64,000 bases of DNA from Meridianimarinicoccus zhengii. Its GTDB lineage: Bacteria; Pseudomonadota; Alphaproteobacteria; Rhodobacterales; Rhodobacteraceae. Each line of letters starts with the position of its first letter. The first letter of the stretch is position 1. The translations under genes were made by a program, and so were the position numbers. Under the pieces are notes generated by a model. It saw only the letters and a program-made list of their open reading frames with translations, was not told the origin of the DNA and did no database searches. The stretch lies in NCBI RefSeq assembly GCF_003254465.1, contig NZ_QDFI01000003.1, positions 1 to 64,000 of the forward strand. The letters are read 5' to 3'. Below, piece by piece: positions 15,727-35,102 of this stretch.

Positions 15727-16563
15727 ATGGCCCGCGACCCCGCCCCCGACACCAGTCCAGAACGCCGCGCGCGGGGCCGCCCGCGCGACTGGGCCGACAA
15801 GAGCGCGCAGAACACCATCAAGTCGCTCGACCGCGCCATCGACGTTCTGGAACGGCTGGGCAATGCGGGGGGCGCGACCCTGTCCGCACTCGCCGCCGAT
15901 CTCGGGCAATCGCCCGCCACGGTTTACCGCGTGCTCGTGACGCTGGAACGGCGGCGTCTGGTGGAATTCGACAGCGCCGCCCAGACATGGGCCATCGGCG
16001 CGGGCGCATTCCTGATCGGCGCGCGCTACCTGCGCCGCACGGCGCTGGTGGACCGGGCACGCCCCGTGTTGCGGGACTTGATGGAAGCGACGGGGGAGAC
16101 CGCGAATCTCGGCGTCGAAACCGACGGGCAGATCCTGTTCGTCAGCCAGGTTGAAACCCATGCCTCGATTCGCGCCTTCTTCCCACCGGGAACGCTTTCG
16201 CCCATGCACGCGTCCGGCATCGGCAAGGCGCTTCTCGCGCAGATGGATGCAGGCCGCGTGGCGCGCGTGCTGGCGGCCCATCCACTGACGGCCTTTACGC
16301 CGCACACCCTAACCGATCCGCGCGCCCTGGCCGACGACCTGGCACAGGTCCGCGCCCGCGGCTGGGCGCTCGATGGCGAGGAACGGACCATGGGCATGAC
16401 ATGCGTCGCGGCGGCGGTGTTCGACCTGCACGGCGACCCCGTGGCGGGTTTGTCAGTTTCGGGTCCGACCGCGCGCGTCCTGGCCAGCGATCCTGCCCGT
16501 CTCGGGGCTGCGGTAGCCGATGCGGCTAGAAACCTGACGGCCGCCGTTGGCGGCAGCGCCTGA
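15727..16563 (+). CDS. bhcR: IclR-family regulator BhcR of the beta-hydroxyaspartate cycle
   Basis: A 278-residue IclR-type regulator. N-terminal winged helix (TIKSLDRAIDVLERLGNAGGATLSALAADLGQSPATVYRVLVTL, written here only as positions 30-73) is followed by the effector-binding GAF-like domain with HASGIGKALLAQ and the C-terminal MTCVAAAVFDLHGDPVAGLSVSGP. BhcR in Paracoccus controls bhcABCD and its DNA binding is reduced by glyoxylate. Its divergent position to bhcA and the repeated operator elements between them support the same role here. Confidence 0.88.
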   Translation: MARDPAPDTSPERRARGRPRDWADKSAQNTIKSLDRAIDVLERLGNAGGATLSALAADLGQSPATVYRVLVTLERRRLVEFDSAAQTWAIGAGAFLIGARYLRRTALVDRARPVLRDLMEATGETANLGVETDGQILFVSQVETHASIRAFFPPGTLSPMHASGIGKALLAQMDAGRVARVLAAHPLTAFTPHTLTDPRALADDLAQVRARGWALDGEERTMGMTCVAAAVFDLHGDPVAGLSVSGPTARVLASDPARLGAAVADAARNLTAAVGGSA

Positions 16564-16580: not shown

Positions 16581-16624
16581 GAGTCCTACAAGAATCCTAC
16601 AGAAGTCATACGAGAGTCATACAC
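16581..16624. repeat. Array of four 11-bp direct repeats (array 1)
   Basis: Four adjacent 11-mers: GAGTCCTACAA, GAATCCTACAG, AAGTCATACGA, GAGTCATACAC. They lie in the convergent gap between bhcR and the replication initiator gene. The 11-bp period is one helical turn, as in plasmid iterons or multi-site regulator operators. A second array with the same core (GAGTCATAC) is at 33744-33787. Confidence 0.85.
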
Positions 16625-16722: not shown

Positions 16723-17412
16723 TCACCCGGACGGTGGACGCACAACGACCCTGTGCACATGCGGCGCCACCCGCCGAATCGCCCCCAGCAACCGGGCCCC
16801 GGCCTGGGTGTTCAGGTACTGCGCATGGAACGCGCTCGGCGCCTCCAACTCCAGCACACCGGACCCCAGCCCGACCCGCTTCACCGACGCTAACCAGTTG
16901 GCATAGAATGCAGAGTCTTCCAGTGACAACTGGCCGATGGCCCGGTCCCATTCCGTATCGCCCGCCGGTGCCGACGGGAACGCAACGACCTTCCGGTCCT
17001 CGGTGGCGGCCTCCGGGTGGCCCGCAAGCTCCGCCGCCCGCAGCACGAAATCCGGCCCGACATGCGCCCAGGCCCTTTCGGTGTCTCGCAGCACCTGCCC
17101 CCAGTCGATCCCATAGACCGTCACCCGCCCCCGCGCCGCGGGACGCTTTACTATCAACCAGTTGCAAGCCTTCAGCTTGGCAAGCTCCCGCTTCACCGTG
17201 CGCTCGTTGACCTGCCAGAGCCGCGCAAGTTCGACCCGGCCCATGGTCAGTTCGTCTCGCTGCCAATTGTACCGCGCCGTGATCGCCGTCATGAACCGCA
17301 GCACCAGCCGCTGTTCGAATTTCGTCCCCCCACACGCATGCACCCCAAGTGCCGTGAGCAGGTCATACTTGCGTGCGGCAGCCCCCTGCCCCGTTGGACG
17401 TTTGGCCAGCAT
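16723..17412 (-). CDS. DnaA-like plasmid replication initiator
   Basis: About 229 residues. The N-terminal half has two helix-turn-helix-like stretches (RVELARLWQVNERTVKRELAKLKACNWL), consistent with a winged-helix DNA-binding domain. The C-terminal ~75 residues (WDRAIGQLSLEDSAFYANWLASVK... to VVVRP) match the pattern of the DnaA N-terminal domain; no AAA+ ATPase is present. This layout is that of the DnaA-like replicases of roseobacter plasmids, which usually sit divergent to parAB, as here. ATG at 17412 is chosen because AGGAG lies eight bases upstream; an open extension to 17553 exists. It should bind the origin in the adjacent intergenic region. Confidence 0.75.
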   Translation of the reverse strand: MLAKRPTGQGAAARKYDLLTALGVHACGGTKFEQRLVLRFMTAITARYNWQRDELTMGRVELARLWQVNERTVKRELAKLKACNWLIVKRPAARGRVTVYGIDWGQVLRDTERAWAHVGPDFVLRAAELAGHPEAATEDRKVVAFPSAPAGDTEWDRAIGQLSLEDSAFYANWLASVKRVGLGSGVLELEAPSAFHAQYLNTQAGARLLGAIRRVAPHVHRVVVRPPSG

Positions 17413-32669: not shown

Positions 32670-33611
32670 ATGAGCAGCTATTCCGTCACTGCTGCCAGCC
32701 CCGCGCAGAAATGGCTCGCCGGCACGCTGGTCATCGCCTACGCGCTCATCACGATCATGCCGCTTCTGTGGATCATCGCCACCGGGTTCAAGTCGCCCTC
32801 CGACGCCATCGCCTATCCGCCGAAAGTCACGTTCGAACCGACGCTGGAAGGTTACGTCAACCTCTTCACCACCCGCACCCGCGTGACCCCGGAAACGCTG
32901 GAACAACTGGGCGAACCGACCACGTGGTACGACCGCATCGTGCGCCAGTACGACATGGTCATCGCCGGGCCGTCCCGCTTCGGGGAACGCTTCCTCAACT
33001 CGGTCATCATCGGCTTCGGCTCGACCTTCCTGTCGGTCTTCCTCGGCACACTCGCGGCCTATGCATTCTCGCGCTTCAAGGTGCCGCTCAAGGACGACCT
33101 GCTGTTCTTCGTGTTGTCCACCCGGATGATGCCGCCCATCGCCGTCGCCATCCCGATCTTCCTGATGTTCCGCACGCTCGGGCTGTCCGACACCCATGCG
33201 GGCATGATCCTGCTCTACACGGCGGTGAACCTGTCGCTCGCCGTCTGGCTGCTGAAAGGCTTCATCGACGAGATTCCCCGCGAATACGAAGAGGCCGCGC
33301 TGATCGACGGCTACACGCGCTTCCAGGCGTTCTACAAGGTCGTGCTGCCGCAGGCCGCGACGGGCATCGCCTCCACCGCGATCTTCTGCCTGATCTTCGC
33401 GTGGAACGAATACGCCTTCGCGGTGCTGCTGACCTCGGGCAATGCGCAGACCGCGCCGCCCTTCATCCCGACCATCATCGGCGTGGGCGGGCAGGACTGG
33501 CCCGCCGTCGCCGCCGGGGCGACGATCTTCCTCGTGCCGGTGATGGTGTTCACGATCCTGCTGCGCAAGCACCTGCTGCGGGGGATCACCTTCGGGGCGG
33601 TGCGGAAATGA
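32670..33611 (+). CDS. ABC transporter permease (MalG/UgpE type)
   Basis: 313 residues with six hydrophobic segments and the EAA loop EYEEAALIDGYTRFQAFYKVVLPQAATG. It has an extended periplasmic loop after the first segment (residues ~45-110). GGAGG lies five bases before the ATG at 32670. Second permease of the sugar/polyol importer. The last 23 bases of the gene are repeated 102 bp downstream. Confidence 0.88.
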   Translation: MSSYSVTAASPAQKWLAGTLVIAYALITIMPLLWIIATGFKSPSDAIAYPPKVTFEPTLEGYVNLFTTRTRVTPETLEQLGEPTTWYDRIVRQYDMVIAGPSRFGERFLNSVIIGFGSTFLSVFLGTLAAYAFSRFKVPLKDDLLFFVLSTRMMPPIAVAIPIFLMFRTLGLSDTHAGMILLYTAVNLSLAVWLLKGFIDEIPREYEEAALIDGYTRFQAFYKVVLPQAATGIASTAIFCLIFAWNEYAFAVLLTSGNAQTAPPFIPTIIGVGGQDWPAVAAGATIFLVPVMVFTILLRKHLLRGITFGAVRK

Positions 33612-33713
33612 TCGCAACACGCGGCATCCCTGGGCTCTGCCCGTTCCGACCTGAAACGCGCCTCCGGAGCGTTTCCAAGTCGGTCTTCGTCCTTCGGGGC
33701 GGTGCGGAAATGA
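33589..33713 (+). repeat. 23-bp direct repeats flanking a hairpin-bearing 79-bp segment
   Basis: The final 23 bases of the permease gene (33589-33611, beginning CCTTCGGGGCGG) recur exactly at 33691-33713, including the stop codon. The 79 bases between contain an imperfect inverted repeat with arms CGACCTGAAACGC and GCGTTTCCAAGTCG. This is a local tandem-type duplication or the footprint of a small inserted palindromic element. Confidence 0.75.
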
Positions 33714-33743: not shown

Positions 33744-33787
33744 GAGTCATATGCGAGTCATATGCGAGTCATACGCGATTCATACAC
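33744..33787. repeat. Array of four 11-bp direct repeats (array 2)
   Basis: Four adjacent 11-mers: GAGTCATATGC twice, GAGTCATACGC, GATTCATACAC. The last unit differs from the last unit of array 1 at 16581-16624 by one base. It lies upstream of the small membrane protein and ATPase genes within the ABC importer locus. Confidence 0.88.
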
Positions 33788-33812: not shown

Positions 33813-34001
33813 ATGCGTGACTTCCTCAGCGGCCTCGCCCGCCTCCGCCGCGGCCCGTGGGAAGCCGTCGCCTCCGCACTGATCGGGCTCGGCGTGGTGA
33901 TGCTCATGCAGCCCTTCGTGATGGTCGCCTACACCTATTCCTTCATCGTGACGCTGACCGGGACGGTGATGTTCCTCATCGTGTCCCACTTTCCCGAGTG
34001 A
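33813..34001 (+). CDS. Small membrane protein within ABC importer operon
   Basis: 62 residues with two hydrophobic segments (AVASALIGLGVVMLMQPFVMVA and FIVTLTGTVMFLIV) and a basic N-terminus. CCGGAGG precedes the ATG at 33813. It lies between the second permease and the ATPases, the place where glycerol-type importers (glpSTPQUV of rhizobia) also encode a small membrane protein, though the sequence is not clearly the same family. It may be an accessory subunit. Confidence 0.65.
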   Translation: MRDFLSGLARLRRGPWEAVASALIGLGVVMLMQPFVMVAYTYSFIVTLTGTVMFLIVSHFPE

Positions 34002-34004
34002 CCC

Positions 34005-35102
34005 ATGGCCCGTATTGAAATCAGGAACTTGCGCAAGGATTTCGGCAGTTTCAACGCCGTGAAATCCTCCAGCTTCGTGATCGAGGACGGCGAATTCTTC
34101 ATGCTGCTCGGCCCGTCCGGCTGCGGCAAGACCACCACGCTGCGGATGATCGCGGGGCTGGAGCTGCCCACCTCGGGCGAGATCCTGATCGACGGCGAGG
34201 AGGTCAGCCAGCGCCCCGCTTCCCAGCGCGACATCGCCTTCGTCTTCCAGATGTTCGCGCTCTACCCCCATATGAACGTCCGCCGCAATATCGCCTATCC
34301 GCTTGTTTCCCAAGGGCTTCCCAACGCGCAGGTCACGGCGAAGGTGGCCGAGGTCGCCCGCATCCTCGGGATCGAGGACATCCTCAACCGCCCCGTCGGT
34401 GGCCTGTCCGGCGGCGACCGGCAGCGCGTCGCCCTTGGCCGCGCCATCGTCCGCGACCCCAAGGCCTTCCTGATGGACGAACCCTTGGGCGCGCTCGACG
34501 CCGAATTCCGCGAACGCATGGCCGAGGAGTTGCGCGCGCTCCACGACCGCATGGGCGCCACCACCGTCTACGTCACCCATGACCAGCTCGAGGCGATGCA
34601 GATGGGCGACAAGATCGTCGTGATGAATCATGGGGTTGTGGAACAGTTCGGCGTCCCCCAGGACATCTATGACTGGCCCGCGTCGCTGTTCGTCGCCGAT
34701 TTCATCGGCTCGCCGCCCATGAACGTGCTGCGCTTCGACGGGGCCGTCTCGCCGGGTGACGGGGCCGTCACGCTGGGCGACGCCCGCTTCGACATCCCCG
34801 CCCTGCGCGAAGGGGCCAACGGCACGCTCGGGCTGGGCGTGCGGCCCGAACACATCCGGCTCGACGACGCCGCCCCCTATCGCGGGGTGGTGGAAGCCGT
34901 TGAATACCTTGGCACAACCCAGATCGTGACGCTGGACACGCCGCATGGCGAGATCAAGGCGCGCACGCCCTCCGACCAGCCCGTGCAGGCGGGTGCACGC
35001 ACCGGCATCGCGCTCGACCCGCGGCGGCTGAGCCTCTTCGACACCGCCACGGGCCGTGCGCTGCGCTCGGCCGGCAACGAAAGGGTGCTCGCCCATGGCT
35101 GA
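34005..35102 (+). CDS. ABC transporter ATP-binding protein 1 (MalK/UgpC type)
   Basis: 365 residues. Walker A GPSGCGKTT, signature LSGGDRQRVALGRAI, Walker B FLMDEPLGALDAE, switch His in YVTHDQLEAM, then a C-terminal OB-fold regulatory domain (LGVRPEHIRLD). It starts three bases after the small membrane protein stop. One of two ATPases, which suggests a heterodimeric motor as in GlpST. Confidence 0.92.
   Translation: MARIEIRNLRKDFGSFNAVKSSSFVIEDGEFFMLLGPSGCGKTTTLRMIAGLELPTSGEILIDGEEVSQRPASQRDIAFVFQMFALYPHMNVRRNIAYPLVSQGLPNAQVTAKVAEVARILGIEDILNRPVGGLSGGDRQRVALGRAIVRDPKAFLMDEPLGALDAEFRERMAEELRALHDRMGATTVYVTHDQLEAMQMGDKIVVMNHGVVEQFGVPQDIYDWPASLFVADFIGSPPMNVLRFDGAVSPGDGAVTLGDARFDIPALREGANGTLGLGVRPEHIRLDDAAPYRGVVEAVEYLGTTQIVTLDTPHGEIKARTPSDQPVQAGARTGIALDPRRLSLFDTATGRALRSAGNERVLAHG

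Follow-up and report, generated by a model that had tools for sequence, protein, structure and literature searches.

Dispersed tetrads of 11-bp repeats in Rhodobacteraceae, spelled in species-specific dialects at conserved positions

Meridianimarinicoccus zhengii and a number of other Rhodobacteraceae carry dispersed arrays of 11-bp direct repeats that mostly number exactly four units, are spelled in a dialect that differs from species to species and recur at positions shared between species and between genera. It is about an even call that these arrays are a genome-wide family of recognition sites for a putative oligomeric or four-module DNA-binding protein with a chromosome-scale role; we infer all three elements of this reading, namely that a protein recognizes the arrays, that it acts at the DNA rather than the RNA level and that its role concerns the chromosome as a whole. 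More tentatively still, Rhodobacteraceae may have a hitherto undescribed system for marking the whole chromosome, in which 44-bp tetrads are bound by a putative fast-evolving reader (four-module or oligomeric) and have been rewritten in concert at conserved positions across genera, even inside the essential gene valS.

Two arrays lie in the window, the 64,000-nucleotide stretch that was analysed here. Array 1 (16581..16624, forward strand) consists of four contiguous 11-bp units, GAGTCCTACAA GAATCCTACAG AAGTCATACGA GAGTCATACAC, in a mixed TCCTAC/TCATAC dialect. It occupies a convergent intergenic region between a gene for an IclR-family regulator (15727..16563, forward strand), whose stop codon lies 17 bp before the array, and the gene for a DnaA_N-type plasmid replication initiator (16723..17412, reverse strand), which is not linked to the array family. 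Array 2 (33744..33787, forward strand) has the four 11-bp units GAGTCATATGC GAGTCATATGC GAGTCATACGC GATTCATACAC, lies between ABC-transporter genes and ends 25 bp before the gene for a small membrane protein of 62 aa (33813..34001, forward strand), which is followed in the same operon by an ABC ATPase gene (34005-35102). The 11-bp register is strict in both arrays, and a position weight matrix (PWM) of the unit scores array 1 at 62.8 bits and array 2 at 68.2 bits, with a maximum of 15.1 for the reversed sequence. Both arrays are real and far above chance, and the four contiguous 11-mers that an earlier note reported at array 1 are borne out by the sequence and the PWM. The note also described a core shared with an array 17 kb away; that second array exists and is the better of the two, but the exact core GAGTCATAC is found in array 1 in the fourth unit only, units 1 and 2 being GAGTCCTAC/GAATCCTAC and unit 3 AAGTCATAC. 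No Rfam covariance model matched the window at gathering score. A 21-bp sequence, TTCGGGGCGGTGCGGAAATGA, lies at the permease gene's end and has a second copy about 100 bp downstream, the whole spanning 33591-33713 of the window; the 81 bp between the two copies contain an imperfect hairpin, and a similar stretch occurs in Meridianimarinicoccus roseus.

Exactly four units were counted in 121 of the 149 Rhodobacteraceae arrays, which share the general unit NNN-TC-[AC]-[TG]-A-[CT]-[AG]-N; a broader general form is N-N-N-YC-N-K-A-N-R-N. The preferred core differs by genome. The window's genome uses TCATAY and TCCTAC, M. roseus and Rhodovulum marinum use TCATATG, Fluviibacterium aquatile uses TCCTAC, Pseudoruegeria sp. 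SK021 uses TCCGAC, and Rhodovulum tesquicola and several MAGs use TCCGAT. In one further genome (G071; L071-L081), units often alternate between GAGTCATAC and ATGTCATAC, and the array resembles two 22-bp repeats. In two of three genomes, linker sequence varies with place in the array, a dependence whose observed value was reached by 0 of 500 order-shuffles; the exception is R. marinum, where linker order is not significantly position-specific; an example from genome G157 reads TCCGAT-RAAAG-TCCGAT-AGAAT-TCCGAT-GGTTT-TCCGAT. This position dependence implies that the element is the whole tetrad, with its direction. The 3' flank of the arrays has phased A/T-rich positions. It shows no RNA structure beyond what composition and shuffles give, which rejects an RNA hairpin or an intrinsic terminator, and pairing between the two flanks hardly exceeds that in re-pairing controls.

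The window's genome contains 88 four-unit pattern matches, and the reversed-pattern control yields none; in other genomes the same control gave a single match in one unrelated genome and two in another. Twelve arrays were found in a 432-kb sample (about one per 36 kb) comprising the window and four contigs that were picked partly for holding matches, from which very roughly 130 arrays per genome are extrapolated. Array-bearing genomes hold about 40-130 tetrads. The core matched in one of 210 genomes sampled across the class, the window's own, and a looser form matched in 12 of 149 genomes of the family; the core is thus patchy within the family and rare in the rest of the class. The system is also dispensable, since the congener G152 has no core-pattern match genome-wide (in 400 kb only a remnant at serA was seen) and G153, an incomplete genome, has one.

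Arrays are mostly intergenic, and in the window's genome all those examined are intergenic except one in valS. With gene calls taken from a home-made finder, neighbours in this genome include argB, typA, cbbX-like and ubiB-like genes, argG, murB, leuS, recF, leuD, dinB and serA, among others. A coherent regulon is ruled out by this mixture of functionally unrelated housekeeping genes. The arrays avoid promoter regions and prefer convergent gene ends, and they can sit inside coding sequence on either strand. At some loci of the window's genome, a single intergenic region holds a TCATAY array and, 70-80 bp from it, one of the TCCTAC/TCCGAC class (L012, 1501-1657; L038, reverse strand, 1501-1656); such pairs possibly mean that there are two readers, paralogous to each other, or that the sites are of two ages. 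Exact four-unit pattern matches also occur in thirteen viral contigs of IMG/VR (L402-L414). Some Bacteroidales, Saprospiraceae and a Pedobacter have intergenic 11-bp arrays that are longer and more perfect, in fact nearly perfect, and whose units fit the degenerate core (units TAGTCATACAG, AAGTCCGATAA, AAGTCCTATGA and CAATCCTACAC; contigs L182, L208, L235, L237, L252, L188, L238, L240, L213, L204 and L278), with several arrays per genome in some MAGs; homology is not claimed for them because the scan itself selected for the core.

Positions are conserved while spelling changes. The serC-serA gap holds an array in its own dialect in all six congeners examined, eroded in G152 and shortened in M. 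roseus (G150), and the position of array 2 in the ABC operon is also occupied in M. roseus. The array 2, argG, murB, recF, DUF1194, DUF4170 and dinB positions are each occupied again, in the local dialect, in at least one congener, and positions shared across genera include a PQQ-type beta-propeller operon, a chorismate mutase gene and typA, among others. The clearest case is valS, the gene for valyl-tRNA synthetase, in which about ten species, each with its own dialect, carry three or four in-frame units in the same loop (the window's genome, M. roseus, F. aquatile, SK021, G154, G019, G064, R. tesquicola, G157 and Litoreibacter); the loop is ordinary in several other genera. Genome G001, of another Rhodobacteraceae genus and negative for the core pattern, has at the valS position an 11-bp array of another sequence (TCTTYCATAAC). 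The dialect predicted from this position, TCTTYCRTARY, proved to be dispersed in G001 (L389-L398), with 19 matches there and none in 15 other genomes, and this is a successful prediction from the valS position.

A dedicated DNA-binding reader would account for these features. The 11-bp unit would present one site per helical turn, so that four DNA-binding modules might lie on one face of the helix, and the central two-base degeneracy (A/C, then T/G) is what would be expected for single hydrogen-bond contacts by a protein. The putative reader and its sites may co-evolve, which would give each species its dialect and leave the loci unchanged. Rather than controlling one regulon, the reader might organize the nucleoid or segregation, or mark self DNA for exchange; a chromosome-scale role seems most likely given the avoidance of promoters, the preference for convergent regions, the unrelated neighbours and the sites inside coding sequence on either strand. 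A search for the reader gene among recurrent array neighbours, within and across genera, gave no candidate.

The orientation of the arrays bears on whether they act as DNA or as RNA. An RNA-level site, in which the four 11-nt repeats are transcribed and serve, in UTRs and between cistrons, as the target of a multivalent RNA-binding protein or regulator, is an unlikely though plausible reading. It would explain why arrays share the direction of tandem genes in a ratio of 30:6 in the window's group, the Meridianimarinicoccus core (some are orthologues and not fully independent), and of 5:1 in G071, why they often stand 10-25 nt past a stop or 20-30 nt ahead of a start, and why the in-frame valS arrays are sense-oriented. 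The 30:6 ratio likewise counts against an orientation-free DNA mark, since such a mark does not predict a bias. However, R. marinum, the MAG Bin_6 and SK021 show no bias (11:15), one array is antisense inside an ApbE-like coding sequence, and both the strict helical pitch and the preference for convergent regions speak against RNA. In R. marinum, Bin_6 and SK021, convergent regions hold 21 of 56 intergenic arrays versus 27 of 157 intergenic regions (Fisher p 0.003). Pure transcription polarity is rejected, being strong in the window's group and absent from these three genomes, and an explanation of the bias by avoidance of spurious start codons does not fit M. roseus. The lack of bias in three genomes, the convergent enrichment, the antisense array and the unstructured flanks all hint at the DNA level, and the arrays are read as marks in double-stranded DNA that keep away from promoters; the orientation preference, which is lineage-specific, does not follow from this reading.

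A selfish miniature repeat, spread by a mobile enzyme and with the dialects as successive subfamilies, is a rather improbable source of the arrays. REP/REPIN elements, which are associated with RAYT transposases, are short, palindromic, dispersed, extragenic and present in roughly a hundred copies, and the arrays resemble them in being short, dispersed, extragenic and about as numerous. The arrays are also lineage-specific and patchy, and their position-specific linkers suggest a copied unit. They are nevertheless direct repeats at conserved positions with neither inverted termini nor conserved flanks, and no empty site with a target duplication was found. Mobility alone does not give positions shared by several genera together with replacement of a dialect across a whole genome. 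The REPIN/REP class itself is rejected, as there are no palindromic units or inverted pair, no notable flank-flank helix and no structure in the 3' flank.

Chance resemblance to PhoB-type pho boxes or to clustered CcrM methylation sites (GANTC) is very improbable. The pho box is an 11-bp direct repeat of TGTCATA read by PhoB, and the G071 units ATGTCATAC resemble its half-site, while the GAGTC, GATTC and GACTC units of the window's dialect fit GANTC. The TCCGAY, TCCTAC and TCTTYC dialects fit neither, however: the TGTCAT half-site motif is missing from other dialects and the neighbouring genes are not those of the phosphate regulon, the CcrM fit is limited to the window's dialect, and many units read AAGTC.

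The earlier note had taken the arrays for a feature of the replicon and proposed that they could be initiator or ParB sites. The gene beside array 1 was correctly identified, as its product (16723-17412) matches DnaA N-terminal-domain plasmid proteins (the Pfam DnaA_N match is weak) and the gene is adjoined by those for ParA and ParB, a replicon of the DnaA-like type; but the array lies beyond the 3' end of the initiator gene, about 98 bp away, where there is neither the initiator promoter nor an obvious origin. The initiator-parA intergenic region contains no true iteron family or comparable repeats. The window contig has a third array (C144:92742-92783), and three arrays in 112 kb correspond to about the genome-average density; the same pattern is found on many other contigs of the assembly. 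The family is widespread beside unrelated genes (among them argG, murB, typA, leuS, serA, dinB and recF) and in several genera, which is the outcome that the note itself named as refuting its idea, and in three related DnaA-like plasmids the surroundings of the initiator contain no array of this kind. Although array 1 is near a DnaA_N initiator gene that has ParA/ParB as neighbours, it is therefore scarcely credible that the arrays are iterons or ParB/parS sites of a DnaA-like plasmid, the repeats being neither confined to the replicon nor conserved at related initiators. The note's further suggestion, operators of a multimeric regulator, survives in part, in that a putative multimeric DNA-binding protein is kept and its sites are recast as genome-wide.

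It is rare for about a hundred dispersed sites to change in concert while their positions are conserved. The textbook case is the dialects of DNA uptake sequences (DUS), which are pilus-dependent, whereas several of the bacteria considered here appear to be without the pilus secretin. If a dedicated reader exists, an abundant family of marine bacteria would have a new system of protein-DNA recognition on the scale of the chromosome, and the dialects would offer a natural series in which to study the joint change of a protein and all its sites.

Among known systems, oligomeric proteins act on 11-bp-phased direct repeats at parC of plasmid R1 (ParR) and at pho boxes (PhoB). The former is a single plasmid locus and the latter serves the phosphate regulon, whereas the arrays are genome-wide and no link to partition or Pho genes was found. 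The open-access literature searched, as far as the sources were available, contains no description of 4×11-bp arrays, in agreement with the earlier note, which knew of no described element with this unit; TAACTGA repeats and DUS come nearest, and neither covers the element. According to MacGregor (2015, PMC4679880), TAACTGA heptamers occur in marine Beggiatoaceae, Cyanobacteria and some Bacteroidetes as about 170 dispersed intergenic sets per genome, each of 2-6 direct repeats, and RNA-level binding was proposed for those in Beggiatoaceae. Like the arrays, they are dispersed intergenic direct repeats with functionally unrelated neighbours, a patchy taxonomic distribution and no known reader. 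As described there, the TAACTGA unit is 7 nt long, has one sequence across taxa rather than dialects and lies mostly just upstream of start codons, whereas the arrays have an 11-bp unit, four copies, dialects, conserved positions, convergent enrichment and in-frame copies in valS; with this different unit, and with distances to genes that spread widely, the arrays fall outside the TAACTGA type.

The DUS of Neisseriaceae have dialects that change in concert between related species, as set out by Frye et al. (2013, PMC3630211), and these dialects make an uptake-sequence-like role for the arrays an attractive analogy. The PilQ secretin (TIGR02515) had no match in the array-bearing genomes G149, G150, G151, G154 and G071, and no genome tested passed the cut-off; a type IV pilus uptake sequence is accordingly rejected, and the known pilus route is not supported. 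DUS are single short sites in thousands of copies with the type IV pilin ComP as their reader, whereas the arrays amount to about 40-130 tetrads per genome; what the two have in common is a set of recognition sites, dispersed genome-wide, with a dialect specific to each species.
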